Source: Arthrobacter zhangbolii
Lineage (GTDB): Bacteria; Actinomycetota; Actinomycetes; Actinomycetales; Micrococcaceae
Direction of reading: 5' to 3'
DNA: 64,000 nucleotides
NCBI RefSeq assembly: GCF_022869865.1
Contig: NZ_CP094984.1
Location: 3,162,001 to 3,226,000, forward strand
The notes under the pieces were generated by a model that was not told where the DNA came from, did no database searches, and saw only the letters and a list, made by a program, of their open reading frames with translations. Position numbers and translations under genes: made by a program. Shown one piece after another: positions 17,935 to 61,315 of the stretch (position 1 is its first letter; every line of letters begins with the position of its first letter).

Positions 17935-17991
17935 CTGCCGGATTGGGAAATCGCTCCGCTGCAAACCGGCAGGGATTTCCCAAACCGGCAG
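17935..17991 (+). repeat. Palindromic repeat element, copy A
   Basis: Left arm CTGCCGGATTGGGAAATC (17935-17952) pairs with right arm GATTTCCCAAACCGGCAG (17974-17991), one mismatch in 18. The loop is 21 nt, core CTCCGCTGCAAACCGGCAG. Weaker outer arms continue the pairing on both sides. It lies alone in the 355-bp gap 17782-18136 and matches copy B at 42707 in reverse orientation. Otherwise that gap shows only the ribosome site of the next gene. Confidence 0.75.
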
Positions 17992-18136
17992 ATTCATCCC
18001 CAAACGTAGTGTTATCGCGCTCCTAGGGCCCCCTAAACCCGGACGCACTGCCTCCCTCAGGTGGAGAAATTAGTAAGGATGCTTATAAGCTGGCATCTTC
18101 AGCCCGATTCCCCGGACGGAAACAGGAGATGCAGTA

Positions 18137-19282
18137 ATGAGCACCGACCCAGAGAACCCCGCCAACACTTCCTCGAACGGCCGCGGCGCCAACGACGGCG
18201 GCCCTCTGCGGGACCGCTCGGAACGGTCTGCCGCAGCTGCTGAGACCGCGGGCACCGTTCCCGCAGACGGTCGTAGGGTTGAAGACACCGGCACACGGGT
18301 GAGCGACGCAGCCTCCGCCTCAGCTGCCGATCAGGGTCAGGTACCGGGCCGGCATACGGGCAGCCACGCCGGTAGCTACGCCACGGATCCGGACGGCGGG
18401 CGCAACGATACCCGCGCAGTCCCGGCAGCAGAGATGCGCAACGACAGCACCGCCGGCGAGGACACCTCCACCCGGGCCGTTCCCACGCACACCACCGGCG
18501 AGGACACCCGCACCCGGGCCGTCCCCACGCACACCGCCGGCGAGGACACCTCCACCCGGGTCGCTCCGGTAACGGCAAGCCGCGACCTGCCCGGCGACTC
18601 CGGCGGTGACCGCCGCGCCCACAGGACTGCGGAGGACGGCGATGCAAGGAACGCGCGGAACGATCGGCACAGCGACGGTGTGGCGGGCGACGCCGCCCTG
18701 CCGAACCGGGACGCCCTCCTGGCCTTGGAAAAGGAACGTTTCGGCGGCATGAAGTTCGGCTCGGCGTTCTTCGGCTGGCTGACGGCCACCGGTATGGTGG
18801 TGCTGCTGACGGCGCTGGCCGCCGCGATCGGCGCCGCCATCAACCTTTCCGCCGAAACGGATCTGGGGGCGGCCCTCGAATCCGCCGCCGCCAACCAGTC
18901 CGCCGGTATTATTGGCGCCGTCATCATGCTCGCAGTACTGCTGCTTTCCTACTTTGCCGGCGGTTACGTTGCCGGCCGAATGGCACGCTTCAACGGTCTC
19001 AAGCAGGGCCTGGCTGTGTGGCTGTGGGCGCTGATCGCGGCCGCCGTCGTCATTATCCTGGGCCTGATCTACGGCAGCGATATCCGTAGCATCAGCCAGC
19101 TGAACTCCGTGGCTCCGCTGCCGGAGGATCTGAACAACGTCAGCCCCGGCACCTGGATCGCCGTGGCCGCGAGCCTGGTGGTTACACTGCTCGGCGCCGT
19201 GCTGGGCGGACTGGCCGGTATGCGCTTCCACCGCCGTATTGACCGTGCCGATTTCCGCACGGAAGACACCGTCACCCGCTAG
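18137..19282 (+). CDS. Membrane protein with long disordered, repeat-bearing N-terminus
   Basis: 381 residues. Residues 1 to about 195 are polar and probably disordered, with a 14-residue repeat GEDTSTRAVPTHTT in two full copies and one partial (about 107-145). The rest has about four TMs: FFGWLTATGMVVLLTALAAA, AGIIGAVIMLAVLLLSYFAGG, AVWLWALIAAAVVIILGLIYG and AVAASLVVTLLGAVLGGLAG. The Gly-rich GGYVAGRMARF after TM2 and the C-terminal FHRRIDRADF suggest a conserved domain, but I cannot name it. AGGAG lies upstream of the ATG. A strong hairpin terminator follows. Confidence 0.75.
   Translation: MSTDPENPANTSSNGRGANDGGPLRDRSERSAAAAETAGTVPADGRRVEDTGTRVSDAASASAADQGQVPGRHTGSHAGSYATDPDGGRNDTRAVPAAEMRNDSTAGEDTSTRAVPTHTTGEDTRTRAVPTHTAGEDTSTRVAPVTASRDLPGDSGGDRRAHRTAEDGDARNARNDRHSDGVAGDAALPNRDALLALEKERFGGMKFGSAFFGWLTATGMVVLLTALAAAIGAAINLSAETDLGAALESAAANQSAGIIGAVIMLAVLLLSYFAGGYVAGRMARFNGLKQGLAVWLWALIAAAVVIILGLIYGSDIRSISQLNSVAPLPEDLNNVSPGTWIAVAASLVVTLLGAVLGGLAGMRFHRRIDRADFRTEDTVTR
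18455..18570. repeat. 42-bp in-frame tandem repeat
   Basis: Units at 18455-18496 and 18497-18538 differ by a few bases; a third partial unit runs to about 18570. Each encodes a 14-residue GEDTxTRAVPTHTx motif in the preceding gene. Confidence 0.8.
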
Positions 19283-19300
19283 CGGAGCGCCCTCGGATCC

Positions 19301-19351
19301 AAAACGGCCGCTGCTCCTCCGGGTTTCCGGGGGTGCAGCGGCCGTTTTTAG
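19301..19351 (+). terminator. Strong intrinsic terminator, 14-bp perfect stem
   Basis: AAAACGGCCGCTGC pairs perfectly with GCAGCGGCCGTTTT around an 18-nt loop, followed by T. It ends the membrane-protein gene at 19282. The remaining gap to 19631 holds a degenerate element (19365-19435) and the SDR terminator. Confidence 0.85.
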
Positions 19352-19364
19352 TAGGTCGGCCGGT

Positions 19365-19435
19365 TTGTGTGGCCGGGTGGTTTGCTGCTGGTTTTCCGCT
19401 GCCCGATCCGCAGGATTTCCCACTCTCTGGTACCC
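19365..19435 (-). repeat. Possible degenerate copy (E) of the palindromic family
   Basis: In reverse complement, GTGGGAAATCCTGCGG, then GCAGCGGAAAACC, then ACACAAACCGGCC keep the order of the loop and arm strings of copies A and B (GGGAAATC, GCAAACCGG, CCCAAACCGG), but pairing is mostly lost. This is a weak call based on order and shared words. Confidence 0.3.
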
Positions 19436-19578
19436 CTGCGGCTGCTGTGACCTCACCGGTACCACCGACACCACTGGGTGGGATGCTGTGCACCCGACCA
19501 GTACTACCTTGCATAACCCTTGGAGCCGGGCCTCACATCATCGTCCACGGCACCTGTTCTAACCCGCTGTATAAACAA

Positions 19579-19606
19579 ACCGGGGCCCCGCAAACGCGGG
19601 GCCCCG
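19579..19606 (-). terminator. Intrinsic terminator of the SDR gene
   Basis: CCGGGGCCCCGC pairs perfectly with GCGGGGCCCCGG around AAAC. On the minus strand the stem is followed by GGTTTGTTTAT. It lies 25 bp past the stop of the SDR gene. Confidence 0.85.
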
Positions 19607-19630
19607 GTGCAACGGTGTGTAACCAAACGG

Positions 19631-20539
19631 TTACGGCGAAGGCGTGCCGCCGTTGACGTTCAGCGTCTCGCCGATCACGTAGCTGGACTCCGGGGAGGCC
19701 AGGAAAACGTAAGCGGGGGCAAGCTCGGTCGGCTGTCCGGCGCGGCCCAGCGGAACGCTCTGGCCGAACTCCGGCAGGTCTTCCTTGTTCTGCCCGTCGC
19801 TGGGCTGGAGCGGCGTCCAGAACGGACCCGGCGCCACAGCATTCACGCGAATGCCCTTCGGAGCCAGCTGCTGGCCCAGGCCCTTGGTGAAGTTGTTGAT
19901 CGCAGCCTTGGTGCTGGCGTAGTCCAGCAGGTTCGGCGATGGCTCATAGGCCTGGATGGAGGTGGTGTTGATGATGCTCGAACCGGCCGGCAGGTGCTTC
20001 AGCGCAGCCTTGGTCACCCGGAAGAACGAGTAGATGTTCGTCTTGAAGGTGTGGTCCAGCTGCTCGTCAGAGAGATCCTCGAGGTTGTCCACCGCAACCT
20101 GCTTGCCGGCGTTGTTGACCAGGATGTCCAGCCCGCCGAGGCCGGCCACGGCATCTTCCACGAGCTGGCTGCAGTACTCGGCGTCCTTCAGGTCACCGGG
20201 GAGCTTAACCACCTTGCGGCCGGTCTTCTCGATGACTTCGGCGATGTGCTGCGCGTCCGGTTCCTCTTCGGGGAGGTAGGAGAGGGCGACGTCGGCGCCT
20301 TCCCGGGCGAAGGCGATGGCCACGGCCGCGCCGATGCCGGAATCGCCGCCGGTTACGAGCGCCTTGCGGCCCTCCAGCCGTCCGGTGCCCCGGTAGGTGT
20401 CCTCGCCGTGGTCCACGTGCGGGGTCATGTCCTTATCGAGTCCCGGCTCGGACTGGTCCTGGACGGGAGGGGCGATGGACGGGTAACGGTCCACCGGGTT
20501 CTGGAAGGTGTACTGGTCCGAGTTGTTGCCGTTTGTCAT
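19631..20539 (-). CDS. SDR family oxidoreductase, YghA-type
   Basis: A 302-residue short-chain dehydrogenase with the long N-terminal extension (about 45 residues, including TFQNPVDRYPSI and PGLDKDMTPHVDHGEDTY) that defines the YghA/general-stress subgroup. The NAD(P) motif TGGDSGIG, NNAG, catalytic Ser in NTTSIQAY and YASTK (Tyr-x3-Lys) are all present. The Pro-Gly-Pro lid PGPFWTP and the C-terminal NVNGG are intact. Relatives are stress-induced alcohol or aldehyde dehydrogenases. I use the ATG 25 codons into the open frame (MTNGNNSDQ), preceded by GTGGGAAC. Confidence 0.9.
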   Translation of the reverse strand: MTNGNNSDQYTFQNPVDRYPSIAPPVQDQSEPGLDKDMTPHVDHGEDTYRGTGRLEGRKALVTGGDSGIGAAVAIAFAREGADVALSYLPEEEPDAQHIAEVIEKTGRKVVKLPGDLKDAEYCSQLVEDAVAGLGGLDILVNNAGKQVAVDNLEDLSDEQLDHTFKTNIYSFFRVTKAALKHLPAGSSIINTTSIQAYEPSPNLLDYASTKAAINNFTKGLGQQLAPKGIRVNAVAPGPFWTPLQPSDGQNKEDLPEFGQSVPLGRAGQPTELAPAYVFLASPESSYVIGETLNVNGGTPSP

Positions 20540-20692
20540 AGAAGTTCCCACTTTCGGTAGGTCAGTCCATTTCGGGCGGTCCGGTCGGGGCCGCCGCAAA
20601 AGGCGGTCACTCACGCTTACGTAAGTATGCTTACTACCCTATGCCCGAGGGTCGGTCCGGCTCAAGTTGGGCTGCCCCCAACGACGACGGCG

Positions 20693-20868
20693 CACCACGG
20701 CGGCCGGCACGACGACGCCGCAGCCTGTCCCCGGGCGGACGGCACCACGGCGGCGGGCACGACGACGTCGCAGCCTGTGTCCCCGGGACGGCACGACGGC
20801 GGCCGGTACAACGACGCCGCGGCCCGCGCCCCCGGGCGGGCGGCACGACAGCGGCGGGGCCTACGGCG
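20693..20868. repeat. About 50-bp degenerate tandem repeat, three and a half copies
   Basis: Units begin CACCACGGCGGC..., contain GACGACGCCGCAGCCTGT and end CCCCGGGCGGACGG; they start near 20693, 20743 and 20792, with a partial at 20844. The tract ends 8 bp before the Bcr/CflA stop codon and fills the gap 20540-20875, in which I see nothing else but the SDR upstream region. Confidence 0.75.
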
Positions 20869-20875
20869 GCGGAGC

Positions 20876-22117
20876 CTACGCTCCCCGTGCCAGCCGGCGT
20901 CGTTCCCCGTCCGGCTGGTCCGGACTCCGGGTCGCCAGCAGCGCCAGGACCGCCATCAGCGCCGAACCGCACATCACCAGGGCCAGCGGCAGGGCGGTGT
21001 CCTCCCCCGCGATGCCGGTCAGCGGGGAGACCAGGGCGCCGAAGAAGAACTGTCCGCTGCCCAGTACGGCGGAGCCGCTGCCGGCAGCGAATCCTGCCTC
21101 GGCCAGGGCCAGGCTGGTGGTGTTGCCCATGATGAAGCCCACCGAGGAGGCAGCCAGGAAGATCGGCACGGCCAGCAGCAGCGGCGGAACGTCCAGCAGG
21201 ATCATCAGCAGAAGGACTGCAGAGACACCCAGCAGCACCGGGACGGCGATGCTGACGGTGCGTCGCGGCGGCACCGTCCGGGCCAGGCGGGCGGAAATGA
21301 ACCCGGCCAGCACCAGACCCAGCGCGTTAATACCGAACGCCACCCCGTACCCGGCCGGGGAAAGGCCCATCAGGTTCTGGTAAATGAACGGTGAGGCGGA
21401 GATGTAGCCCATCAGTACGCCGAAGGTGGAGGCGAACAGCACCGCATACCCCACGAACCGGCGTCGGCGCAGCACCGCAGCCAGCCCGCCCAGGAACGGG
21501 CCGCTGCTGCGCTTTTCCGGCGGACGGGTCTCCCGGACAACACCGGCCACCCCGGCGAGCATGGCCGCCGCAAGCCCGGCGAGGACCCAGAGCACTCCGC
21601 GCCAGCCGATGCTGCCGGCCAGGATGCCGCCCACGGTCGGTGCGAGTACGGGCGCCACGCCGCCAATGGTCATGAGCAGGCTGAAGGTGCGGGCCGCTGA
21701 CTGCCCGGAGGTCAGGTCCGCCACGACGGCGCGGGCAATCACCACGCCTGCGGAGGCAAACAGGCCCTGGAAAAGCCGGCCGGCAATAAGTACCGGCAGG
21801 TTCGGCGCCACGGCACAGACCACGGAGGCCAGGACAAACAGCACGGAGCCGATCAGCAGCGGACGGAACCGCCCGTACCGGTCCGAGAACGGGCCGAAGA
21901 ACAGCTGTCCGACCGCCATGCCAATCAAGAAGGCCGTGAGGGTGAGCTGGATACCCGTGGCGGTGGCACCCAGTTCGTCCGCCATCTGCGGGAAGGACGG
22001 CAGATACAGATCTGTGGCGAACGGGCCCGTGGCCGAAAGCAGTGCCAGGACCAGCAGCAGTCCCGTGGTCATGGCGGCGGGGCCGGTGGAACGGCGAAGG
22101 GCGGACATATACGCCAT
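20876..22117 (-). CDS. MFS multidrug efflux transporter, Bcr/CflA family (12 TM)
   Basis: A 413-residue drug:H+ antiporter. TM1 carries the Bcr signature ATGPFATDLYLPSFPQMADEL, motif A GPFSDRYGRFRPLLIG lies in loop 2-3, and the motif C region GVAPVLAPTVGGIL in TM5. Twelve hydrophobic segments and a short basic C-terminus (GERRRLARGA) fit the family, which exports bicyclomycin, sulfonamides, chloramphenicol or cysteine in other bacteria. No regulator is adjacent. The divergent neighbour is a universal stress protein; the two share a 90-bp promoter region. Confidence 0.9.
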   Translation of the reverse strand: MAYMSALRRSTGPAAMTTGLLLVLALLSATGPFATDLYLPSFPQMADELGATATGIQLTLTAFLIGMAVGQLFFGPFSDRYGRFRPLLIGSVLFVLASVVCAVAPNLPVLIAGRLFQGLFASAGVVIARAVVADLTSGQSAARTFSLLMTIGGVAPVLAPTVGGILAGSIGWRGVLWVLAGLAAAMLAGVAGVVRETRPPEKRSSGPFLGGLAAVLRRRRFVGYAVLFASTFGVLMGYISASPFIYQNLMGLSPAGYGVAFGINALGLVLAGFISARLARTVPPRRTVSIAVPVLLGVSAVLLLMILLDVPPLLLAVPIFLAASSVGFIMGNTTSLALAEAGFAAGSGSAVLGSGQFFFGALVSPLTGIAGEDTALPLALVMCGSALMAVLALLATRSPDQPDGERRRLARGA

Positions 22118-22207
22118 CTTAGGAACAATGCCCGGCCCTGCTCTGGCCGTTACGCCTGCATGACGCGCAGACTACTGGATATCTGGCCAACCTCGGGAAG
22201 GAACCCC

Positions 22208-22648
22208 ATGGCTGAGGCACCCCGGAAACGGATTGTTGTTGGTATGGACGGCTCCGAAGAGTCCGTGCAGGCACTGCGGATGGCGGCCCGGCTGGCCGAT
22301 CTGCTCGGCTGCCGGATTGAGACGCTCATTGTCTGGGAATACCCGGCCATGCTGGCAACGCCGTTTCCCACCACGGAGTTCTCTCCGCGAGTTGAGGCGG
22401 AGAATGCGCTGGCCGAGGCCGTGGACGCAGCATTTGCGGACACTGAGGTTCCGGACGGCCTGACCCGGCAGGCAGTGGCCGGACAGCCGGCACGGGTACT
22501 GATGGAGGCCAGCCGCGGAGCGGAAATGCTGGTGGTGGGCAACCGCGGACGCGGCGGGTTTGCCGGGCTGCTGCTGGGTTCGGTGAGTACGGCCGTGGCG
22601 GCCCATGCCTACTGCCCGGTGCTGATTGCCCGGCCGCACCGGGACTAG
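22208..22648 (+). CDS. Universal stress protein (UspA family)
   Basis: A 146-residue single USP domain. The ATP-binding motif G-2x-G-9x-G(S/T) is present as GNRGRGGFAGLLLGSVS, with the N-terminal strand RIVVGMDGSEES. ATP-binding USPs act as cytosolic stress or energy sensors. GGAAGG precedes the chosen ATG (MAEAPRKR). Directly downstream come an 82-bp-spaced direct repeat and a hairpin that separate it from the convergent transporter gene. Confidence 0.9.
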   Translation: MAEAPRKRIVVGMDGSEESVQALRMAARLADLLGCRIETLIVWEYPAMLATPFPTTEFSPRVEAENALAEAVDAAFADTEVPDGLTRQAVAGQPARVLMEASRGAEMLVVGNRGRGGFAGLLLGSVSTAVAAHAYCPVLIARPHRD

Positions 22649-22649
22649 C

Positions 22650-22780: not shown

Positions 22781-22797
22781 AGCCCCAACCCAAGCCG

Positions 22798-38706: not shown

Positions 38707-39615
38707 ATGGACATGCCTACCGTTTCCGACGTCATCCGTACCGCGGATCCGCAGCAGTGGCGCCCCGGGGATGCCTGGATGGCCGGCGGCACGGTGCTGT
38801 TCTCCTACGGATCGGACACGCTGGCCCGGCTGCTGGATATCACCGCCGCCGGCTGGGAATCCCTGACGGTGTCCGAGGACGGCCTGGAGATCGCCGCCAC
38901 CTGCACCATCGCCGAGCTGTTCGCCTTCCCCGACGCCGCCCCGGCCGCGGCCCGGGAGCAGTGGCCGGCTTTGGGCCTGATTCCGCTGTGCTGTGATTCC
39001 TTTGTCGCCTCCTTTAAGGTCTGGAATGTTTCCACCGTGGGCGGGAACATCTGCACCGGCCTGCCCGCCGGACCCATGACGTCGCTGACCACGGCACTGG
39101 ACGGCGTCGCACTGGTCCACTCCCCGGACGGCACCTCGCGCCGGCTGCCCGTGACCGAGCTGGTCATCGGCGACGGCCGCACCGCGCTGGCTCCGGGCGA
39201 ACTGCTGCGCAGCGTCACCCTGCCCGCGTCCGCCCTGCGGGCCCGCACCGCGTTCCGGCGGCTGTCCCTGACCAACCTTGGCCGCTCCGGGGTGCTGGTG
39301 ATCGGCCGGCTGGATGAGGACGGCACGTTTGTCCTGACCGTCACCGCCGCCACCAAGCGTCCGGTCCAGCTGCGGTTCGCCGCCGTGCCCACCCGGGCCG
39401 AGCTGCGCGCCGAGCTGGACCGCAGCATCGACGCCGCGCTCTGGCACGACGATGTGCACGGCCTGCCCGAATGGCGGCACTACATGACGGACCGGCTGGC
39501 CGAGGAAATCCGCGCCGAACTCGCCGCTCCGGCGCCCCCCGCTGCTTCCGCGCCGGCTCCCCCCGCTGCTTCCGCTTCCGCCAACACCCCTGCCCCGAAG
39601 GAGGGTTCCCTGTGA
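38707..39615 (+). CDS. Xanthine dehydrogenase, FAD-binding subunit
   Basis: A 302-residue FAD protein of the molybdopterin-dehydrogenase family. The flavin loop AGGTVLF (near residue 26) and the second motif NVSTVGGNICTGLPAGP (near 108) are present, followed by the CO-dehydrogenase flavoprotein C-terminal domain. The last 35 residues are an Ala/Pro linker. The stop overlaps the GTG of the catalytic subunit gene (GTGA), ensuring equal synthesis. It passes electrons from the FeS clusters to NAD+. Confidence 0.9.
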   Translation: MDMPTVSDVIRTADPQQWRPGDAWMAGGTVLFSYGSDTLARLLDITAAGWESLTVSEDGLEIAATCTIAELFAFPDAAPAAAREQWPALGLIPLCCDSFVASFKVWNVSTVGGNICTGLPAGPMTSLTTALDGVALVHSPDGTSRRLPVTELVIGDGRTALAPGELLRSVTLPASALRARTAFRRLSLTNLGRSGVLVIGRLDEDGTFVLTVTAATKRPVQLRFAAVPTRAELRAELDRSIDAALWHDDVHGLPEWRHYMTDRLAEEIRAELAAPAPPAASAPAPPAASASANTPAPKEGSL

Positions 39616-42563
39616 CCTACCGGATCAATGACGCCGAGGTGGAGGCCACCCCCTTCCCCGGCCAGTGCCTGCGCACCTTCCTGCGCGAACAGGGCAACCT
39701 GGGAGTCAAAAAGGGCTGCGACGCCGGGGACTGCGGCGCCTGCACCGTGCACGTTGACGGCAAACCCGTGCACAGCTGCCTCTACCCCGCGGTGCGCGCC
39801 GAGGGCCGGGAAATCACCACCATTGAAGGCCTGGCCGGTGAGGACGGGCTGCACCCGATGCAGCAGCAGTTCCTGGACGCCCAGGGCTTCCAGTGCGGCT
39901 TCTGCACCGCCGGCATGGTGATGACCGCCGCCACCTTCGACGAGGAACAGAAGGCCAACCTGCCGCGGAACCTCAAGGGCAACCTGTGCCGCTGCACCGG
40001 CTACCGCGCCATCGGGGACGCGGTCTGCGGGCACCGGCATGTGGACGTGCCCGACGACGGCGCCCCGGCTCCGGAGGACGGCGCCGCCGCGGCCAGCACC
40101 CCCGCGCCGCGCACCGTCGGCACCAGCGTGCCGGCCCCGGCCGGCCCGGACATTGTCACCGGCCGCGCCCGCTACACCATGGACGTTCGGGCAGCCGAGC
40201 TGCCCGGGCTGCTGCACATGAAGATCCTGCGTTCCCCGCACGCGCACGCCCGGATTGTTGCCATCGATGCGAGCGCTGCCCTGGCCGTGCCCGGTGTCGA
40301 AGCGGTGCTCACGCACGAGGACGCCCCGGACCAGCTCTTCTCCACTGCCCAGCACGAACTGCACACCGACGATCCCGACGACACCCGGATCCTGGACACC
40401 GTGGTGCGTTTCCGCGGCCAGCGGGTGGCCGCCGTCGTCGCCGCATCGGTGGGTGCTGCCGCGGAAGGCGTGCGCGCACTGAAGGTCGAGTACGAACTGC
40501 TGCCCGCCGTGCTGGACACCGACGCCGCACTGGCCGACGGCGCACCCGAGGTCCACCCCGGCACGGCGGGGAACATCGTGGCGGAACTGCATTCGGAGCT
40601 CGGCGACGCGGAGGCCGGGCTCGCGGCAGCCGCCGTCGTGCACGAGAACACCTACGTCAGCCAGCGGCTGCAGCACGTGGCAATGGAAACGCACGGCTCC
40701 ATCGCGTCCTTTGATGACAAGGGACGCCTGGTGGTGCGCACCTCCACGCAGGTTCCGTTCCTGATCCGCCGCGCGCTGTGCCGGGTATTCGGCCTGAAGC
40801 CGGCTTCGGTGCGGGTGCTCACCGGCCGGGTGGGCGGCGGGTTCGGCGGCAAGCAGGAAATGCTCACCGAGGACATTGTGGCCCTGGCAGCCCTGAAGCT
40901 GAACCGGCCGGTACAGCTGGAACTGACCCGCGAGGAACAGTTCACCGCCACCACCACCCGGCACCCCTTTGCCGTGCACGTCCGCGCCGGCGCCGCAGCG
41001 GACGGCACCCTGACCGCCCTTGCGGTGGACGTCACGGCGAACACCGGGGCCTACGGCAACCACGCGCCCGGCGTGATGTTCCATGGCTGCGGGGAATCCG
41101 TGGCTGTGTATAAATGCGACAACAAAAAGGTGGACGCCCGCTCGGTCTACACCAACACGCTGCCCTCCGGTGCCTTCCGCGGCTACGGGTTGAGCCAGAT
41201 GATCTACGCCATCGAATCCGCCATGGACGAGCTGGCCCGCGGGCTGGGCATGGATCCGCTGGAATTCCGCCGCCGCAACGTGGTGGCCAAGGGCGATGAC
41301 ATGGTTTCCACCGCCCCCGAACCGGCCGAGGACGTGCACTACGGCAGCTACGGGCTGGACCAGTGCATTGACCTGGTCTCCGGCGCGCTGGCCGAGGGAC
41401 GGCAGCGGCCGGAAACCTCCGGGGCGCAATTGCCCGCGGCATCGGAGCTTTCCGGCGACGGCGGGGCGGACGACGGCGGGGCGGACGGCGGCGGGTTCGC
41501 TCCCGTCGTGGACGACGGCGGGGCTGACGACGTCGACGGCTGGCTGATTGGCGAGGGCACCGCCGTCGCCATGATCGACACCGTGCCGCCGCGCGGACAC
41601 ATCAGCCACGCAAAGATCTCCCTGCAGGAGGACGGCCGGTACGGACTGGACGTGGGCACCTCGGAGTTCGGCAACGGCACCACCACCGTGCACACGCAGC
41701 TGGCCTCCACCGCACTGCATACCACCGCGGACCGGATCGTGATCCGGCAGTCGGACACCGATCTGGTGGACCACGACACCGGCGCCTACGGCTCTACCGG
41801 CACCGTGGTGGCGGGCAAGGCCTCGCTGGCTGCCGCGCAGGAACTGGCCACCCTGCTCAAAGGCTTTGCGGCGTCCCTGTTTTCCAACACCTCGGCCCAG
41901 GTGCAGCTGCTGGCCGACTGTGTGGAGTGCGACGGCGAACGGATCCCGCTGGCCGACGTCGCCGCCCGCGCCAGGGCCGAGGAGATCGACCTGTCCGCCG
42001 AGGGCCGCTGGGGCGGCACGCCGCGCTCGGTGGCCTTCAATGTGCAGGGCTTCCGGGTGGCGGTCCACGCGGGCACCGGCGAGCTGCGGATCCTGCAGAG
42101 CGTGCATGCCGCGGACGCCGGCGTCGTGATGAACCCGGTGCAGTGCCGCGGCCAGATTGAGGGCGGCATTGCCCAGGCACTGGGAGCTGCACTGTATGAG
42201 GAGGTGCGAATTGACGCCGAGGGTACGGTGGAAACCCGGATCCTGCGCCAGTACCACATCCCCACGTTCGCCGATGTGCCGCGCACGGAGGTCTTCTTCG
42301 CGGAAACCGATGATGCGCTGGGGCCGATGGGCGCCAAGTCCATGAGCGAGAGCCCGTTCAACCCGGTGGCTCCCGCCCTGGCCAACGCCCTGCGGGACGC
42401 CACGGGGATCCGGTTCGCCCGGCTGCCGTTTGCCCGGGACACCATCTACCTGGGCATGCGGGCGGCCCGGGAGGATTCCGGCGATGTACACGGCGACGCC
42501 CAGGCCGCCGGGAACCTGGCCGCCGGGCTGCGCGAACGGGACGCTCCGGCTCCGGCGGTGTAG
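39612..42563 (+). CDS. Xanthine dehydrogenase, fused [2Fe-2S] and molybdopterin-binding subunit
   Basis: A 983-residue enzyme oxidising hypoxanthine/xanthine to urate. The N-terminal part (1-160) has both [2Fe-2S] sites: [17 protein letters not shown] with a later HSC, and QCGFCTAG with CRCTG. From about residue 170 the molybdenum domain follows (GRARYTMDV..., [20 protein letters not shown], and [14 protein letters not shown] with the catalytic Glu). This is an unusual split: FeS and Mo parts are fused while FAD is separate. A Gly/Asp insert at about 603-644 ([13 protein letters not shown]) interrupts the Mo domain. GTG start overlaps the FAD gene stop. Confidence 0.9.
41452..41545. repeat. 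Simple-sequence GACGGCGGG repeat inside the xdh catalytic gene
   Basis: GACGGCGGGGCGGAC-like units recur four times, in frame, encoding Gly/Asp/Ala runs. The composition resembles the P-type ATPase tail at 7157-7372. Confidence 0.7.
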
Positions 42564-42675
42564 GGCTGCCGGCGCGCCGGGCCGCGCCCCGGCGGCAGGC
42601 CGGTGGGTGCGGCTCAGCCCCTCCGGCTGCCCCGGCGGTGTAGGGGTTGCGGGTGCGGCTCAGCCCCTCCGGCTG
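42553..42675. repeat. Direct repeats duplicating the xdh 3' end
   Basis: CCGGCGGTGTAGGG, which contains the xdh stop codon, recurs at about 42632. GTGCGGCTCAGCCCCTCCGG plus three bases occurs at 42607-42629 and 42653-42675 (period 46). The second copy contains the stop codon of the convergent EamA gene. Confidence 0.75.
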
Positions 42676-43664
42676 ATGGCGTTTCGCTCCGCTTTGTCCG
42701 TTTTCCCTCCAGTTTGGGAAATCGCTGCCGGTTTGCAGCGGAGGGATTTCCCAAACTGGAGGCGTTTTCCCAAAGTGGAGGAATTTTCCCCACCGATGGG
42801 CTTCTTCCTCAGTGCCCTGCCGGCAGGACCGGCCAGCACCAGTGCACCCAGAACGACAGCCGCGCCAAGACACTGGCCGGGGCTCAGCGCCTGCCCGGCG
42901 AGCAGCCAGCCGGCCGCGGCAGCAACCACCGGACTGAGCAGCCCGAGCAATGCGGCACTGGACGCCGGAAGCCGGTGCAGGCCGCGGAACCACAGGCTGT
43001 AGGCCAGGGCGGAGCCGATCAGACAGAGATAGGCATAACCGGCGAGGTTGATGCCGGTCAGGGCGGGCGGCGGTCCTTCCACCAGCAGCGCCAGCGGAAG
43101 CAGGAACACTCCGCCGGCGATCAGCTGCCAGGACGTGGCGGCCAGCAGCGTATCCGGGACACCCCATTTTTTGGTCAGGACCACCCCGGCGGCCATGGCT
43201 ACCGCCCCTCCCAGCGCAGCCGCCACACCCACCGCGTCCAGACGGGCCTGTGCCTGCAGCACCAGCAGCCCGACGCCGGCCATCCCGGCGGTACCTGCCG
43301 CCAGTTTCCGTCCGGTCAGCCGTTCCCCGATCCAGCGCGAGGCGAAAAGCGCCACCAGCAGCGGCTGCACGGCACCCACCGTGGCGGCCACCCCGCCGGG
43401 CAGCCGGTAGGCGGCCACAAACAGCAGCGCAAAGAACAGCCCGATATTCAGCACTCCCAGCACTGCCGAACGCCACCACCACTGGCCGCGGGGCAGCCGC
43501 CGCACCAGCAGAAGCAGCAGCAGCCCTGCGGGCAGGGAGCGCAGCAAGGCGGCCAGCAGGGGCCGCTCCGGCGGCAGCAGTTCCGCTGCCACGATGTACG
43601 TGGTTCCCCAAACAATCGGCGCCAGGGCCGTCGTTAGGGTCAGGATCAAGGTTTTGCTAAGCAC
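42660..43664 (-). CDS. EamA/DMT family exporter with a repeat-derived C-terminal tail
   Basis: A 334-residue, ten-TM drug/metabolite transporter (two EamA halves: about residues 10-140 and 150-280). APIVWGTTYIVAAELLPPERP and the Pro/Arg-rich loop LLRSLPAGLL are typical of RhaT/YdcZ-like exporters. The family core should end near RALRKKP (about 287). The remaining tail, including GKSLRCKPAAISQTGG, is encoded by palindromic element B and flanking repeats, so a former intergenic element has been captured by read-through. The GTG start lies within the MarR operator, 6 bp after TATATT, so the mRNA may be leaderless; a TTG five codons in is an alternative. Confidence 0.85.
   Translation of the reverse strand: MLSKTLILTLTTALAPIVWGTTYIVAAELLPPERPLLAALLRSLPAGLLLLLLVRRLPRGQWWWRSAVLGVLNIGLFFALLFVAAYRLPGGVAATVGAVQPLLVALFASRWIGERLTGRKLAAGTAGMAGVGLLVLQAQARLDAVGVAAALGGAVAMAAGVVLTKKWGVPDTLLAATSWQLIAGGVFLLPLALLVEGPPPALTGINLAGYAYLCLIGSALAYSLWFRGLHRLPASSAALLGLLSPVVAAAAGWLLAGQALSPGQCLGAAVVLGALVLAGPAGRALRKKPIGGENSSTLGKRLQFGKSLRCKPAAISQTGGKTDKAERNAISRRG
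42707..42761 (-). repeat. Palindromic repeat element, copy B
   Basis: Left arm CTCCAGTTTGGGAAATC (42707-42723) pairs perfectly over 17 bp with GATTTCCCAAACTGGAG (42745-42761). The 21-nt loop core is the exact reverse complement of the loop core of copy A (19 of 19 bases), so B lies in opposite orientation. The outer stem differs from copy A on both sides yet still pairs. Confidence 0.8.
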
Positions 43665-43692
43665 TTAGCTAATATAGCTAAGTGCTTAGCAA
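43654..43692. promoter_or_regulatory. 39-bp palindromic operator/promoter between eamA-like and marR genes
   Basis: TTGCTAAGCACTTAGCTA (43654-43671) and its exact reverse complement (43675-43692) flank ATA. Both divergent -10 boxes (TATATT leftward, TAATAT rightward) fall at the centre, so one bound dimer pair would block both promoters. Partner: the MarR protein encoded 18 bp to the right. Confidence 0.85.
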
Positions 43693-43709
43693 ATTGCTAG
43701 AGTGCAATC

Positions 43710-54072: not shown

Positions 54073-54080
54073 CCGGAACC

Positions 54081-54980: not shown

Positions 54981-54992
54981 AAAGGACCCACC

Positions 54993-56018: not shown

Positions 56019-56023
56019 TCCCG

Positions 56024-56779
56024 ATGACCTCTCCCGAACTCCTCGTTGAACTCCGAGGCATCAAGAAGTCCTTCGGTCCAGTGAAATCGCTGCAGGGCGT
56101 GGACCTCAAACTGCACCGGGGCGAAGTCCTTGGCCTGGTGGGGGACAACGGCGCCGGCAAATCCACGCTGATGAAGGTGCTCGCCGGCGCCGAACAGCAC
56201 GATGAAGGCGAAATCCTGATCCGCGGAAAGTCCGTGAAATTCAACAGCCCCGGTGACGCGCAGAAGGAAAACATCGGCATCGTCTACCAGGACCTGGCCC
56301 TCTGCAACACCCTCGATGTGGCGAGCAACCTGTTCCTTGGCCGTGAGCCGGTCAAGGGCAGGTTCCTGGACCGGCGGACCATGCACGAACAGGCTGCCAA
56401 GGTTTTGGATGACCTGCATGTCCGGGTCAAGTCCACCCACCAGGAAATCGGTACCCTTTCCGGCGGCCAGCGCCAGACTGTCGCCATCGCCCGGGCGGTT
56501 TCCTTCAAGCCCGACGTGCTGATTCTGGACGAGCCGACGGCGGCCCTCGCCGTGGCCGAGGTGGAGTCGGTCCTCCGCCTCATCCGCCAGGTTGCTGCGG
56601 AGGGGGTGGGCGTCATCCTGATTACCCACCGGCTGCAGGACATCTTCCGGGTCTGCGACCGGGTCACCGCCATGTACGAGGGCCAGAGCGTGGATGACCG
56701 GCCCATCAGCTCCCTGAACATTGAATCCCTCGTCGCCATGATCACCCGGTCGGACGAAGAGTACCCGGAGGCATCCTGA
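56024..56779 (+). CDS. ABC transporter ATP-binding protein (single-domain RbsA/FrcA-like)
   Basis: A 251-residue ATPase. Walker A GDNGAGKST (about 41-49), signature LSGGQRQ (about 145) and Walker B VLILDEP, with the D-loop and a His switch in ITHRLQD. It has one nucleotide domain only, unlike the duplicated RbsA (about 500 residues), and so resembles FrcA, which works as a homodimer with a single-permease system. I start at the ATG eight bases after GAAG; a GTG that overlaps the previous stop is an alternative. Its stop overlaps the permease start (TGATG). Confidence 0.92.
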   Translation: MTSPELLVELRGIKKSFGPVKSLQGVDLKLHRGEVLGLVGDNGAGKSTLMKVLAGAEQHDEGEILIRGKSVKFNSPGDAQKENIGIVYQDLALCNTLDVASNLFLGREPVKGRFLDRRTMHEQAAKVLDDLHVRVKSTHQEIGTLSGGQRQTVAIARAVSFKPDVLILDEPTAALAVAEVESVLRLIRQVAAEGVGVILITHRLQDIFRVCDRVTAMYEGQSVDDRPISSLNIESLVAMITRSDEEYPEAS

Positions 56780-57792
56780 TGACTACCCCCACACCGACCG
56801 CACGCGCCGTCCGGACCAGTTCCCCTTCGTGGCTGGAACGCTCGAATAAACCCACGCTGCTGATGGGTGCGGTCACCGTGCTCATCGCGGTGATTTTCTC
56901 CATCGCCAGCCCGGCGTTCCTGTCGCTGGGCAACCTGGCCAACCTGGCCACCCAGATTGCTCCGGTCCTGGTGATCGGCGTGGCCATGACGTTCGTCATC
57001 ACGGCCGGACAGATCGATCTCTCCGTCGGCGCCATTGCCGCGTTCATTGCAGCCACCAGTGCCGAACTGATCGCCACGGGCATGGAATCATCGGTGGTCA
57101 TCCTGCTGGCCTGCCTCATGGGGCTCGCCTGGGGGCTGGTCAACGGCTACCTGGTCAGTTACCAGGGCATCCCGGCCTTCATCGTCACCCTAGCGACCAT
57201 GTCCGTGATCCGTGGCCTGGCGCTGCTCTCTACCGAAGGGTTCTCCATTCCCATCGGCGAGCAGACCGTGATGCGGCAGATCGGCTCCGGTTCCTTCCTC
57301 GGGATTTCCTGGCTGGCCTGGATCGGCATTGTTGTTTTCATCGCCGGACTGATCCTTATGCACAAGATGCGTTTCGGCCAGTACGTCACCGGCATCGGTT
57401 CCAACGAGGAATCGATCCGCCGGGCCGGCGTCAATACCCGCCGCATCAAGATGCTGGTCATGGCCCTCTCCGGCCTGGCCGCCGGCATCGCCGGCGTGAT
57501 GATCGCAGCCCGCCTGGGGTCAGGTTCGGCGAACTCCGCCGTCGGGCTCGAACTGACGGTGATCGCCGCCGTCGTCATCGGCGGTACCGACCTGTTCGGC
57601 GGACGCGGCACGGTTGTGGGAACCCTGATCGGGGCAATCCTCACCGGGTTGATCGCCAACGGCCTGACCCTGGTGGGCATGAGTCCGTTCCTCACCCCTA
57701 TTGTTACCGGCCTCGTCCTCCTCGCCGCGATCTGGATCAATATGCGCGGCAAGAAACTCTCCGATCTCGTCAGCAGGTTGAGCGGAAAATGA
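56779..57792 (+). CDS. ABC transporter permease (RbsC/FrcC-like)
   Basis: A 337-residue permease of the BPD_transp_2 family with about ten TMs. Conserved blocks: NLATQIAPVLVIGVAMTFVITAGQIDLSVGAIAAF, GIPAFIVTLATMSVIRGLALLST, the EAA-like cytoplasmic loop TGIGSNEESIRRAGVNTRRIKMLVMALSGLAAGIAG, and VIGGTDLFGGRGTVVGTLIGAILTGLI. It imports the ligand of the upstream binding protein; a homodimer is expected as only one permease gene is present. ATG overlaps the ATPase stop, and its own stop overlaps the next ATG (ATGA). Confidence 0.93.
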   Translation: MTTPTPTARAVRTSSPSWLERSNKPTLLMGAVTVLIAVIFSIASPAFLSLGNLANLATQIAPVLVIGVAMTFVITAGQIDLSVGAIAAFIAATSAELIATGMESSVVILLACLMGLAWGLVNGYLVSYQGIPAFIVTLATMSVIRGLALLSTEGFSIPIGEQTVMRQIGSGSFLGISWLAWIGIVVFIAGLILMHKMRFGQYVTGIGSNEESIRRAGVNTRRIKMLVMALSGLAAGIAGVMIAARLGSGSANSAVGLELTVIAAVVIGGTDLFGGRGTVVGTLIGAILTGLIANGLTLVGMSPFLTPIVTGLVLLAAIWINMRGKKLSDLVSRLSGK

Positions 57793-58817
57793 CCACTGTC
57801 CAGACGGTTGGCGGCCCGGTTGAGCACACCGAACTGGGGCTTGTCCTGCCGCACGAGCACCTGGCAAACGATCTGGCGCGTGCCTTCACTCCCGCCGAGG
57901 ACCCGCAGATCCGGACCCTGCTGGCCGGCCCGGTGACCGCAGAACTGGCACCTGTCCTGCGCGAACATCCGTATAACAGCAAAGACAACTGCGGCCTGCA
58001 TGACCCCGCAGCAGTGGTTGAGGATCTGAGCGCTTTTCGGGCAGCGGGCGGGACTACGGTCATTGACCTCACTCCGCCCGGCCTGGGCCGGGACCCCGAA
58101 GCCCTGCTGAGGTATTCCGAGGCCTCCGGGGTCCGGGTAGTGATGGGTTCGGGATGGTACCTGCAGAAATTCCAGGCTGGTGAGGAACTGGCGGCCTCCG
58201 AGGAGGAGCTCACCGCACAGATTCTCGCCGACTTCGAGCGGCCGGGCGTGCGTCCCGGTGTGATCGGGGAAATCGGCGTCTCGCCGTCGTTCACCGCCGC
58301 GGAGGAAAAATCGCTGCGTGCCGCCGCCCGTGCCCAGCTGCAGTTAGGGGTGCCGCTGTTTGTCCATCTCCCCGGCTGGTTGCGGGTTGGCCACCGGGTG
58401 CTGGACATCGTGCTGGATGAATGCGGGGTGCGGCCCGAGGCAGTGGTGCTGTGCCACATGGACCCCTCATCGGAGGACCCCGGCTACCAGCTGGAGCTGG
58501 CCAAACGCGGCACCTACCTCTGTTTCGACATGCTCGGCATGCCGTACAGCTACCCGGGCGAAGGCATCTCGCCAACCCCGGACCAGGCTGCGGAGGCGGT
58601 GGCCCGGCTGATCGAGGCAGGTTACCGGGACCGGATCCTGCTCAGCCACGACGTATTCCTCAAGGGGATGCTCAGCCGCTACGGCGGCAACGGCTTCGGC
58701 TTTGTTCCCTCCGTTTTCCCCCGCTTCCTGGCGGAGCGCGGGGTATCCGGGGAAACCGCCAGGGAACTGATGACAAGGAATCCGGCGCAGCTGTTTGTCG
58801 ATTCACACCACGCATAA
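57789..58817 (+). CDS. Phosphotriesterase-like amidohydrolase superfamily protein
   Basis: A 342-residue TIM-barrel hydrolase. The metal pair is visible as LPHEHLAND, further His in LFVHLPGW and VVLCHMDPSSED, and the Asp in LLSHDVFLKGML; GVIGEIGVSP occupies the usual Lys/Glu strand, with Glu as in the phosphosugar-lactonase branch where Lys carboxylation is absent or shifted. Characterised relatives hydrolyse phosphorylated sugar lactones, not organophosphates. In the operon it would act after import and phosphorylation. Start overlaps the permease stop (ATGA). Confidence 0.88.
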   Translation: MTTVQTVGGPVEHTELGLVLPHEHLANDLARAFTPAEDPQIRTLLAGPVTAELAPVLREHPYNSKDNCGLHDPAAVVEDLSAFRAAGGTTVIDLTPPGLGRDPEALLRYSEASGVRVVMGSGWYLQKFQAGEELAASEEELTAQILADFERPGVRPGVIGEIGVSPSFTAAEEKSLRAAARAQLQLGVPLFVHLPGWLRVGHRVLDIVLDECGVRPEAVVLCHMDPSSEDPGYQLELAKRGTYLCFDMLGMPYSYPGEGISPTPDQAAEAVARLIEAGYRDRILLSHDVFLKGMLSRYGGNGFGFVPSVFPRFLAERGVSGETARELMTRNPAQLFVDSHHA

Positions 58818-58862
58818 ACCACTCCACCAGTTACAAGACCACTAGTTATCCAAGAAGGAATC

Positions 58863-59615
58863 ATGGCCAAAGTACTAATTGCCGGCGAAAGCTGGATGAC
58901 CACCTCCACACACGTCAAGGGCGTCGACGAGTTCTCCGTGCACTCCTACGTGGAAGGTGTGGGTCCGCTCAAGAACGCCCTGGAAGCCGCCGGGCACGAG
59001 GTCACCCACATGCCGGCCCATCTGGTGCCGACAGAGTTTCCCGGCAGCGCCGAGGCGCTGGGCCGCTACGACGTCGTTGTGCTCTCGGACATCGGCGCCA
59101 ACTCCATCCAGCTCGCCCCCGGTGTTTTTGAACGCTTTACGCCGGGCGAGGACCGGCTGCAGGCACTCGCCGACTGGACCCGCGCCGGGGGCGGGCTGGT
59201 GATGATCGGCGGTTACCTGTCCTTCTCCGGTTTCCAGGCACGTGCCGCGTTCCGCAATACCGCCATCGCCGAGGTGCTGCCGGTTGGCATGCTGGCCGAG
59301 GACGACCGGTGGGAGCTGCCCTCCGGCCTGACCGCCAAGGTGGAGATGCCCGGGCATGCGGTGTTGGGCAGCGCCGGCGAAGAGTGGCCGGCACTGCTGG
59401 GCTACAACCGCACCACGCTGCGTCCCGGTGCCGAGCTGGTGGCATCCATTAACGGTGATCCGCTGATCGCGCTGTCCGAGCATGGTTCCGGACGCAGCGC
59501 CGTCTTCACATCGGACTGCTCCCCGCACTGGGCTCCGGCGGCCTTCTGCGAGGAATGGCCGGGATACCAGCAGATCTTTGACGGCATCATCCGCTGGGTC
59601 TCCGGCGAACAATAA
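58863..59615 (+). CDS. Glutamine amidotransferase-like (DUF1355/GATase1-like) protein
   Basis: A 250-residue protein with a class I glutamine-amidotransferase-like fold. VLIAGESWMTTSTHVKGVDEF and YDVVVLSDIGANS, then GGGLVMIGGYLSFSGFQARAAFRNTAIAEVLPV belong to the PF07090-type family; the nucleophile Cys of true GATases is replaced in GGYLSFSG, so no glutaminase activity is expected. GSGRSAVFTSDCSPHWAPAAFCEEWPGY is also conserved in the family. Last gene of the LacI-controlled operon, 45 bp after the phosphotriesterase-like gene with AAGAAGG before its ATG. Function unknown. Confidence 0.82.
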   Translation: MAKVLIAGESWMTTSTHVKGVDEFSVHSYVEGVGPLKNALEAAGHEVTHMPAHLVPTEFPGSAEALGRYDVVVLSDIGANSIQLAPGVFERFTPGEDRLQALADWTRAGGGLVMIGGYLSFSGFQARAAFRNTAIAEVLPVGMLAEDDRWELPSGLTAKVEMPGHAVLGSAGEEWPALLGYNRTTLRPGAELVASINGDPLIALSEHGSGRSAVFTSDCSPHWAPAAFCEEWPGYQQIFDGIIRWVSGEQ

Positions 59616-59642
59616 GACGGGTGCCCCCGGCGCCTGTTTCAC

Positions 59643-59686
59643 GGGGCGGCCAAGCAATCCGTTATGTACGGTTGCTTGGCCGCCCC
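59643..59686. terminator. Bidirectional intrinsic terminator, 15-bp perfect stem
   Basis: GGGGCGGCCAAGCAA (59643-59657) pairs with TTGCTTGGCCGCCCC (59672-59686). It separates the LacI-controlled operon from the convergent MarR gene. Confidence 0.88.
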
Positions 59687-59688
59687 GC

Positions 59689-60114
59689 TCAGTCCAACGC
59701 CGTGGAGACGTGCCGCAGCCAGCGGGCCACCGTTTCCAGTTCCTCAGGGGTGAAGCCGTCATTGATGCGCGTGTTCAGTTCGTTGATGGCCCCGTGGACG
59801 ACGCCGAGCGCCTCCGTTCCGGCCGGCGTCAGGGCCAGGCGGATGGTCCGGGCATCGGCCGGATCGGGTGCACGGGTGATGAGCCCGGCGGACTCCATCC
59901 GGGCCAGCAGCCCGCTCATCCCGGCCGGGGACGCCTGCACCGCGTCGGCCACTTCACCCGTGCTCGCGCCGGGATGGGAGGCGACGTACAGGAGCACCCC
60001 GCCCGCGGAGGCACTGATGCCATGCTCCCTGCCCCGGCCGGCAATCCAGCGCCGCAGCCGGCGTTCGGCGGTCAGCGTAAGGAAAAACAGGCGCGGCGGT
60101 TTCGCCGTACGCAC
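59689..60114 (-). CDS. MarR family transcriptional regulator
   Basis: A 141-residue winged-helix regulator. SAGGVLLYVASHPGASTGEVADAVQASPAGMSGLLARMESAGLITRAPDPADARTIRLALTPAG spans the HTH and wing. The GTG start (MRTAKPPRLFFLTLTAERRL) has GGGGAG four bases upstream; the longer open frame overlaps the hydrolase gene and is not supported. It follows the hydrolase gene by 35 bp in the same operon and probably binds the TTTCGCATGCGAAA palindrome at the hydrolase start, controlling both genes. Confidence 0.88.
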   Translation of the reverse strand: MRTAKPPRLFFLTLTAERRLRRWIAGRGREHGISASAGGVLLYVASHPGASTGEVADAVQASPAGMSGLLARMESAGLITRAPDPADARTIRLALTPAGTEALGVVHGAINELNTRINDGFTPEELETVARWLRHVSTALD

Positions 60115-60149
60115 TGACTCCCCCGGCTCGGCATTCCGGCGGGGCGCGC

Positions 60150-61025
60150 CTACTGCGGGCTCAGCCCTGCTTTCTCCGTCAACCACGTCAGCACCTCCGG
60201 CCACAGCTTCTCACGCGAACTGCGGCGGAAGAAGCCCATGTGCCCGGCAGGTGAATAGGTGCGCCGCTCCACCGAGGCGTTGACCAGGTGGGAGAAGACC
60301 GCGTTGATCTGCCCCGGCGTCGCCCAGAGATCGTCGGTGAACCCGATCACCAGCGCGTCCGTCTTCACCTCGGCGGTGCGCCGGGCGGCATCCATGCTCG
60401 GATCATCAAAGAAGTAGTTCGGTTTTTTGCTCCAGCCGCTCCACTCCAGCATTGCGGCACCGGGCATGTCCTCCCCCAGGCCGAGCTTCCGGCCGGGCAC
60501 GGCGCCCAGCAGCCGGCCGGTCAGCGGACCGAGGAAGCTCAGGATCAGTCCCACCCGGAACCGTTCCTTCCGGTCCTCAATGGCCCTGGTGACACCGGCG
60601 TGCGAGGCCACGCCCACGAATCCGCGCAGGTCCTCCAGCCCGTTGTTCAGCGCCATGGCGTGGGCGCCGAGGCTGTGGCCCACGGCCAGGTGCGGCAGGT
60701 CGGGGAAACGGTCCCGCATCCAGGCCGACGTCGCCGGGACGTCCTGGCCCATCCAGTCGCGCATCCTCAGCTGCCGGTTCGCCTTCGGGCTGCCCGAGGC
60801 GCCGGTCCCGCGGTAGTCATAGGTCAGCACGGCAAACCCGTTTTCGGCCAGGTATTCGCCGAAGCCGGTGTACAGCCGTTCCGCCACCGCGGTGGCCGGG
60901 TGGATGACGACGGCGGCCCGGGCCGTGCCGTCGGGTAGGCGCAGGGTTCCGGCCACCGCACCGCCGGCGGGAACCGGGATGGAAATCCGTTCGGCAGTGA
61001 TCGAGGTCACGTCATTATTTCGCAT
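60150..61025 (-). CDS. Alpha/beta hydrolase (YheT/serine aminopeptidase-like)
   Basis: A 291-residue alpha/beta hydrolase. Oxyanion strand VVIHPATAVAERLY, YDYRGTGASG, nucleophile elbow GHSLGAHAM, Asp region GFTDDLWATPGQIN and His in SPAGHMGFFRR are all present. The pattern fits the group annotated as alpha/beta hydrolases of the YheT/S33 type with acyl or ester substrates. The ATG (MRNNDVTSITAERI) lies within a 14-bp palindrome and 7 bp after TATATT, so the message may be leaderless. The frame extends upstream into a GGCT microsatellite, which is not coding. Co-transcribed with marR. Confidence 0.85.
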   Translation of the reverse strand: MRNNDVTSITAERISIPVPAGGAVAGTLRLPDGTARAAVVIHPATAVAERLYTGFGEYLAENGFAVLTYDYRGTGASGSPKANRQLRMRDWMGQDVPATSAWMRDRFPDLPHLAVGHSLGAHAMALNNGLEDLRGFVGVASHAGVTRAIEDRKERFRVGLILSFLGPLTGRLLGAVPGRKLGLGEDMPGAAMLEWSGWSKKPNYFFDDPSMDAARRTAEVKTDALVIGFTDDLWATPGQINAVFSHLVNASVERRTYSPAGHMGFFRRSSREKLWPEVLTWLTEKAGLSPQ

Positions 61026-61031
61026 GCGAAA
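61018..61031. promoter_or_regulatory. Perfect palindrome TTTCGCATGCGAAA overlapping the hydrolase start codon
   Basis: The 14-bp palindrome contains the ATG of the hydrolase gene; TATATT on the minus strand ends 7 bp before it. This suits a MarR-family operator sitting on the transcription start of a leaderless operon. Confidence 0.65.
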
Positions 61032-61099
61032 CAATATACATGGGACGAACGGTTGCGGATACCCTTCGGGGTCGGACTTCTCGGTCTGGGGTGGGTGGC

Positions 61100-61149
61100 G
61101 GGCTGGCAGGCTGGCTGGCTGGCTGGCTGGCAGGCTGGCAGGCTGGCTG
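61100..61149. repeat. GGCT tetranucleotide microsatellite
   Basis: GGCTGGCA and GGCTGGCT units run for about 50 bp upstream of the hydrolase promoter. Copy number may vary between strains. Part of the 452-bp gap 61026-61477, which is filled by this tract, element C and two further hairpins. Confidence 0.8.
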
Positions 61150-61186
61150 TACGGGCCCGGCACTTTGCCGCCGGTTTGTGGATTCC

Positions 61187-61244
61187 CTGCCGGTTTGGGT
61201 TTGTACTGCCGGTTTAAACGGGCAGCAAAAACCCAAACCGGCAG
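61187..61244 (+). repeat. Palindromic repeat element, copy C
   Basis: CTGCCGGTTTGGGTTT (61187-61202) pairs perfectly with AAACCCAAACCGGCAG (61229-61244). The 26-nt loop contains CTGCCGGTTTAAACGGGCAG, itself nearly self-complementary. Outer arms CCGGTTTGTGGATTCC and GGATTC-type/CCGAACCGG (61171 to 61260) extend the fold with mismatches. The downstream string AACCGGTCGATTTTCC is shared with copy D. Confidence 0.75.
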
Positions 61245-61315
61245 CAGATTCCCGAACCGGTCGATTTTCCAGGCCGGGACTCTCCCCGGCCCGCACAGAT
61301 TCCCACGGAGTGTTA

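Follow-up and report, generated by a model that had tools for sequence, protein, structure and literature searches.

A genus-wide family of modular palindromic repeats in Arthrobacter

Three copies of a palindromic repeat and their neighbourhood

The 64,000-nucleotide stretch of the Arthrobacter zhangbolii genome analysed here (the window; positions 3162001-3226000 of a single contig of 3,464,001 bases, referred to as the own genome or G000) holds three copies, A, B and C, of a dispersed palindromic repeat. Copy A (17914..18011, + strand) comprises an outer left unit, a core palindrome (stem 17935-17991) and a partial right unit, and occupies the gap between two genes that both read away from it: on the left a DUF456 gene (17281..17781, - strand; PF04306, E 9.9e-29), on the right a gene (18137..19282, + strand) with a weak Yip1 match under the curated cut-off, whose ATGAGC start is present in most relatives read (the gene caller chose a start at 18434). 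Copy B (42686..42782, - strand; core stem 42706-42762) follows the end of a molybdopterin-binding oxidoreductase gene (39471..42563, + strand; PF02738, PF20256) and overlaps the 3′ end of an EamA transporter open reading frame (ORF) of 334 amino acids (42660..43664, - strand; PF00892, E 6.9e-34). Copy C (61168..61261, - strand) is a divergent variant with the inner palindrome CTGCCCGTTTAAACCGGCAG and two 19-nt units per side, stem arms included; an HpcH/HpaI aldolase gene (61478..62278, - strand; PF03328, E 3.7e-53) lies upstream of it in its own orientation.

We built a family model from 31 copies, with A and B included and C left out. Copies A, B and C scored 85.5, 70.7 and 44.9 bits with nhmmer, compared to a best score of 8.1 bits over ten simulated windows (range of maxima 3.3-8.1), and each was matched by a covariance model as well (A at 3179913-3180013 of the own genome). 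A scan for stems with 18-bp arms, at most two mismatches and loops of 3-30 nt found nine places in the window compared to 0 or 1 in each of ten order-1 simulations. The stems at 17935, 42706 and 61187 have 17/18, 18/18 and 17/18 pairs around loops of 21, 21 and 22 nt, confirming a preliminary description of A, B and C as near-perfect stems. That description had also reported that A and B have CTCCGCTGCAAACCGGCAG in common, exactly and in opposite orientation, and that their differing arm ends (CTGCCGG and CTCCAGT) are both paired; these two points can be read directly in the sequence. The arms of A and B differ by exchanged unit ends (CTGCC and CTCC), and in B the exchange extends to the outer unit. 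Two sites put forward as decayed relatives fared less well, as the one near 13298 scored 7.5 bits, inside the range of simulated maxima, and the one near 19365 gave no model match. Overall, the three copies and the dispersed palindromic family of the preliminary description stand, while its decayed copies, high copy number and selection on RNA structure are not supported.

Aligned copies revealed an element of about 100 bp, in which a long central inverted repeat lies between inverted 19-nt units, the left one CTGCCGGTTTGGGATTCTG-like and the right one GTTTTTCCCAAACCGGAGG-like; this full extent, with 19-nt units beyond the stem, had previously been missed. The consensus core reads CTGCCGGTTTGGGAAATCCCTCCGCTGCGCAGTGGCAGGGATTTCCCAAACCGG followed by CAG or TCG. 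The left side is sometimes amplified, with tandem 19-nt units in relatives and, in the genome G024, left-side arrays of 52-bp double units in 2.7 to 4.8 copies. The predicted RNA folds reach -48.8 kcal/mol for A (z -4.5), -51.9 for B (z -7.6) and -61.8 for C (z -8.4), and all five family copies folded gave z from -4.5 to -9.3. Across the 31 copies 85.9% of the core cells are paired. At columns 25/80, where the core stem has its foot, more than half of the family's copies are unpaired. In the family alignment the right unit is rich in T, which fills 0.74, 0.75, 0.48 and 0.66 of the rows at columns 84, 85, 87 and 88.

Copy number, taxonomic range and turnover

A BLAST search of the own genome with A returned 25 rows, 17 of which (E 0.15 or less) define nine places, the other eight (E 0.27 and above) being treated as chance. 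The covariance model recovered the same nine places, each on both strands. Six of them fall at 3.10-3.26 Mb, so that the window sits in a local cluster, and the earlier extrapolation from five sites in the window to many in the genome did not hold, with only nine places in 3.46 Mb. The flanking genes of the copies sort into separate site groups, showing that homologous copies lie at unrelated places. With A as the query, 21 of 25 Arthrobacter genomes gave a match and none of 14 genomes from other families of the order did. Of 149 genomes sampled from the taxonomic family, the covariance model matched 20, comprising 8 Arthrobacter genomes and 12 in seven other genera, with at least 27 strand-wise matches each in G002 and G024. 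Matches outside Arthrobacter scored below most Arthrobacter matches, and among the four that were read, one has the unit CTCCGCTTTGGGACAT in common and three look like different palindromes. Exact matches to a repeat pattern of 19 specified bases were found in 12 public stretches, nine of which are from Arthrobacter; by our estimate, the remaining three (Lachnoclostridium, a Nitrospira metagenome-assembled genome and an archaeal one) fit chance. We conclude that A, B and C belong to a genuine, genus-wide family of modular palindromic repeats of about 100 bp and modest copy number in the soil bacterium Arthrobacter, as the preliminary description had anticipated in calling the palindromes dispersed.

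Its statement that they match no named repeat also agrees with our searches: in Rfam only a tRNA reached the gathering score, and literature searches retrieved no description of this Arthrobacter family. A table of counts in the consulted portion of PMC12306157 includes an Arthrobacter species, and may count this family.

Occupancy varies between close species. Site A is occupied in the own genome, G001, G002 (two copies), G003, G014, G015, G020 and G021, and no element was seen there in G008, G009, G010, G012 and G018, the relatives read at that site. A site next to an aldo/keto-reductase gene is occupied in G002, G008 (two copies), G012, G015 and G020, rearranged in G014, and empty in the own genome, G009, G018 and seven more distant relatives (260 nt read). 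Since the own genome and G002 are sisters in a tree from three stretches and differ at the aldo/keto-reductase site, a gain or loss must have occurred within or near the pair. G014 and G015 are 96.7% identical over the same three stretches, and 159-bp and about 339-bp segments with copies in G015 are missing from G014. The site of the about 339-bp segment is also occupied in the own genome, G002, G008 and G020, and therefore G014 lost its copy. Thus the presence/absence variation expected by the preliminary description does occur, and at least one absence is a deletion.

Cores taken from separate sites have a mean identity of 0.765 when both belong to one genome and 0.713 when they come from two, and cores of one site group compared across genomes average 0.76; copy C and the G002 copy that occupies its site have cores that are 90% identical. 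A distinctive variant of the core recurs in G024 at four separate places (L272, L273, L275 and L278) with 92-97% identity, and the cores of local duplicates (L276 and L279) are up to 98% identical. About 100 bp behind several G024 copies (L272, L278) lies an inverted repeat (ccgacacgcgttcccact ... agtgggaacgcgtgtcgg), to which TTCCCAC ... GTGGGAA, at about 61300-61380 of the window behind copy C, is loosely similar. At the aldo/keto-reductase site of G008, G012, G014 and G015 (L340-L343), a further palindrome with similar-looking units (GGTTTGTCCGGATCCC...) adjoins the element. The EamA ORF runs through copy B (window 42660-42784), from which about 33 of its codons (about 293-326) derive, with the remaining tail behind it. 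Homologous ORFs have other tails: five relatives stop at 304 amino acids and G002 at 322, where the ORF likewise ends inside an element, in the opposite orientation.

Placement relative to genes, pairing and proposed role

To describe where the elements lie, we took 120 of them, from 19 genomes, in stretches picked among the listed matches; one element at a locus edge was left out. The 119 classified elements divide into 56 between convergent genes, 35 in tandem gaps with the transcript, 10 in tandem gaps against it, 16 between divergent genes and 2 overlapping a called gene, compared to 41 convergent, 142 tandem and 97 divergent among the 280 remaining gaps (60 nt or longer) of these stretches. 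Collapsing orthologous sites left 54 sites, and merging neighbouring copies left 51: 23 convergent, 17 tandem with the transcript, 5 tandem against it and 6 divergent. Convergent gaps are in excess (23/51 compared to 41/280 other gaps, Fisher P = 3e-6), divergent gaps are in deficit (6/51 compared to 97/280, Fisher P = 0.0009), and between tandem genes 17 of 22 sites follow the transcript (one-sided binomial P = 0.008). Among elements facing a stop codon, 40 of 101 lie within 20 nt of it (orthologues counted apart), compared to 22.6 expected from uniform placement (standard deviation 2.8, maximum 33 over 2000 draws). Convergent genes often have one copy in common, and 9 of the 16 divergent elements represent site A, spread over 8 genomes. 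The consulted sections of PMC1590033 report that strong bacterial stem-loops generally favour convergent gaps and the 50 bp after stop codons; because a like preference is reported there across bacteria, placement alone does not make the family special.

We also compared element strand with the direction of replication for 57 elements in 8 genomes, assuming that contig starts are origins, which was shown for the own genome only. Its contig opens with ORFs whose translations read as dnaA, dnaN, gnd and recF, and the origin was therefore taken at the contig start. Overall, 22 elements lie with the fork and 35 against it, and we rejected the idea that the fork sets their orientation. The 20 tandem elements of this set lie 13 with and 7 against the fork, and 16 with and 4 against the transcript. 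Across the 8 genomes, the final 15% of the contig contains 27 of the 57 elements, with orthologous sites entering the count more than once, and six of the nine own copies, those at 3.10-3.26 Mb, are 200-360 kb from the presumed origin. This last feature, like the regular 19-nt spacing and the inverted arrangement of the units, would suit a binding array, with the 19-nt unit as the site recognised by a protein of nucleoid or chromosome organisation. However, we saw no enrichment of the unit CCGGTTTGGGA in the rest of the own genome, since 9 of its 10 exact matches lie within elements and at most one mismatch gives 79 matches compared to 97 for a reversed control, making a binding array highly improbable. 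A lone dispersed unit resembling an uptake sequence was rejected on the same grounds.

The reading that we favour, and regard as just probable, is that these modular Arthrobacter repeats form hairpins at mRNA 3′ ends. Once transcribed, an element would fold there into a highly stable hairpin, which could limit read-through, protect the end, or both. Copies would persist where the hairpin does no harm or is of use, an idea also put forward for REP and ERIC. New copies would arise by a route other than a present-day RAYT, and recombination between units may generate the arrays and the losses.

Several observations weigh against this reading. The genes underlying the placement counts were called with a home-made codon-usage script. 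Site A falls in a divergent gap in 8 genomes, a setting in which no terminator would be expected. Neither A nor C has a U-tract behind the stem on either strand, and B has one (CGTTTTCC, four T) on the + strand only; a terminator scan listed none of A, B and C, although its loop limit of 8 makes it weak. G-U and A-C combinations are equally common in the stem (254 and 244 of 4292 cells), even in elements lying with the transcript (68 and 70). The convergent gap of G014 keeps, after the loss of its copy, a shorter stem with an ordinary fold (z -0.86). As for dispersal, no target-site duplication was seen in three comparisons of filled and empty sites, one of which is a deletion and the others unpolarised, and G015 and G002 cores at different sites also reach 97% identity, so that identity among the G024 copies cannot alone date or prove recent spread.

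Some of these points also bear on another proposal, namely that the repeats are canonical intrinsic terminators with sequence common by descent and selected as terminators. Stable predicted hairpins behind stop codons, the T-rich right unit, the T-run behind B on the + strand and the frequent use of one copy by two convergent genes all agree with it. Nevertheless, the missing U-tracts of A and C, a stem foot that is unpaired in more than half of the copies and so parts the stem from the T-run, the divergent site A and the parity of G-U and A-C make it distinctly unlikely.

Covariation of the named structure in the 31 copies was reached by none of 500 column shuffles, a test that relatedness can inflate, and a control in which the structure was slid by three columns counts against the structure (32 doubly changed cells and 43 types of pair, compared to 30 and 38 for the structure). 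In 120 copies, 8 of the 36 stem pairs rank among the top 100 of 4956 column pairs, compared to 0.73 expected. Pairing in the stem therefore persists on long time scales and equally for the two strands, a pattern that does not point to RNA. The pairing-preserving changes of the preliminary description hold as covariation above background, but the selection on structure that it suggested is unsupported, given the equal G-U and A-C counts and the changes between near-identical copies, where 474 changes affect one side only, 3 are paired Watson-Crick changes and a further 63 are double changes of other kinds. A maintenance of the palindrome at the DNA level, in which the arms are matched by template switching or unit exchange and paired changes do not reflect selection on RNA, would explain why paired arm changes exceed background without G-U outnumbering A-C. 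It would also fit the outer unit of B, which has the CTCC end of both arms, and a second palindrome family (see below) that is equally symmetric with stronger covariation. Against it stand the 3 paired Watson-Crick changes compared to 474 one-sided ones, and arm correction must therefore be infrequent on short time scales. We consider DNA-level maintenance unlikely.

A somewhat less unlikely alternative is that of selfish REP-like palindromes without host function, which insert anywhere and survive where genes and promoters stay intact, that is, at 3′ ends. Presence/absence variation, the copy lost from G014 with no unusual hairpin remaining, the avoidance of divergent gaps, the lack of an RNA-type wobble preference and the variant common to several places of G024 are all in keeping with selfish repeats. 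By itself, however, selfishness does not account for orientation along the transcript (17 sites compared to 5), leaves the excess within 20 nt of stop codons unaccounted for, and sits poorly with the retention of the divergent site A in 8 genomes.

Known repeat systems, a second palindrome family and dispersal

Miniature inverted-repeat transposable elements (MITEs) are short non-coding inverted-repeat elements, and the inverted pairs of uptake sequences in Neisseria and Haemophilus are short units forming hairpins behind genes. The Arthrobacter repeat is like MITEs in being short, non-coding and inverted-repeat, but the three site comparisons gave no target-site duplication and, among transposases, only Y1_Tnp was searched for; like uptake-sequence pairs it has inverted short units and hairpins behind genes, but single units are not scattered over the own genome. 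Uptake sequences are mentioned, as DUS families, in the consulted part of PMC2267715, in whose main text Arthrobacter does not occur. As far as the consulted sections of PMC1590033 and PMC2267715 describe them, the stem-loop-containing (SLS) families, among them ERIC/Ype and Efa, resemble the Arthrobacter family in being dispersed and mostly intergenic, with a strong stem-loop and a preference for 3′ ends and convergent gaps, and differ from it in sequence and taxon and in having neither its 19-nt units nor its one-sided tandem amplification. The features of that class recur in Arthrobacter, with multiple unrelated places, a stable predicted stem-loop and an intergenic 3′-end preference, and our best reading places the family among the stem-loop intergenic repeats already known, such as REP and ERIC.

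Intergenic palindromes, inverted units, clusters and presence/absence variation also recall the REP, BIME and REPIN elements, on the evidence of the consulted portions of PMC3733652 and PMC3116915. The former defines REPs by the tag GTAG or CGTC, which marks one palindrome foot, and their copy number is usually above 100 (PMC2817692, in part); the consensus of the 31 Arthrobacter copies has neither tag at the palindrome foot, the own genome has nine copies, and no RAYT or other Y1_Tnp gene was found in the 25 Arthrobacter genomes. The corresponding profile, PF01797 (Y1_Tnp; IS200/IS605-type and RAYT transposases), was the only transposase profile searched, and as a control it matched 5 of 14 known genomes. 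The REP-type transposase raised by the preliminary description was therefore not encountered, and of all our findings this absence should be the most useful to future work. An earlier RAYT that has since been lost may have been involved; CGTC-type REPs are also said to have no dedicated transposase (PMC3733652, same portions). With the copy of one relative as the query, no match was found in plasmids or phages.

At 1197-1199 kb of the own genome (L190) and in 10 other genomes, elements lie between GH2 glycosidase and glyoxalase-like genes, often as two elements around a variable gene (with no Pfam family in the own genome, an alpha/beta hydrolase in G002). The own gene flanked by two elements at 1197-1198 kb, whose translation had been read as DUF559/AbiEi-like, was considered as a mobilising partner and dropped because G002 has the alpha/beta hydrolase there, the own gene has no Pfam match and the DUF559 match of the own genome lies elsewhere.

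A second, unrelated dispersed palindrome lies in the window at 61395..61456 (no strand assigned), between copy C and the aldolase gene, with 29-nt arms. Its family has stems of 20-29 bp, occupies 6 places in the own genome and 8 in G002, and gave a match in 6 of 17 Arthrobacter genomes searched. Paired arm changes are above shuffles (score reached by 0 of 500), with no G-U preference (6 G-U compared to 7 A-C), and 16 copies distribute over 7 tandem, 5 divergent and 4 convergent contexts. In both the own genome (at 952450) and G002 (at 921975), this second family has a copy no more than a few hundred bases beyond a DUF559 match. Elsewhere in the window, a 19-bp inverted repeat without mismatches, its arms 3 nt apart (43653-43693), lies in a divergent-gene gap and is possibly an operator.

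Together, these data raise a bolder proposal, which we consider doubtful: that a DNA-level process which does not depend on RAYT/Y1 transposases, such as hairpin-templated copying at replication forks, both disperses at least two unrelated Arthrobacter palindrome families and maintains their palindromes. Were this true, paired arm changes with no G-U preference would be the footprint of that process, and its activity would be more recent in the G024 lineage. RAYT transposases are the usual explanation for REP-like repeats, and palindromes that are genus-wide, turn over at the species level and coexist with no Y1 in 25 genomes offer a tractable case for RAYT-free dispersal. Transcription termination is less studied in high-GC actinobacteria, and the family provides a defined set of hairpins behind genes with which transcript ends could be mapped in one of them.

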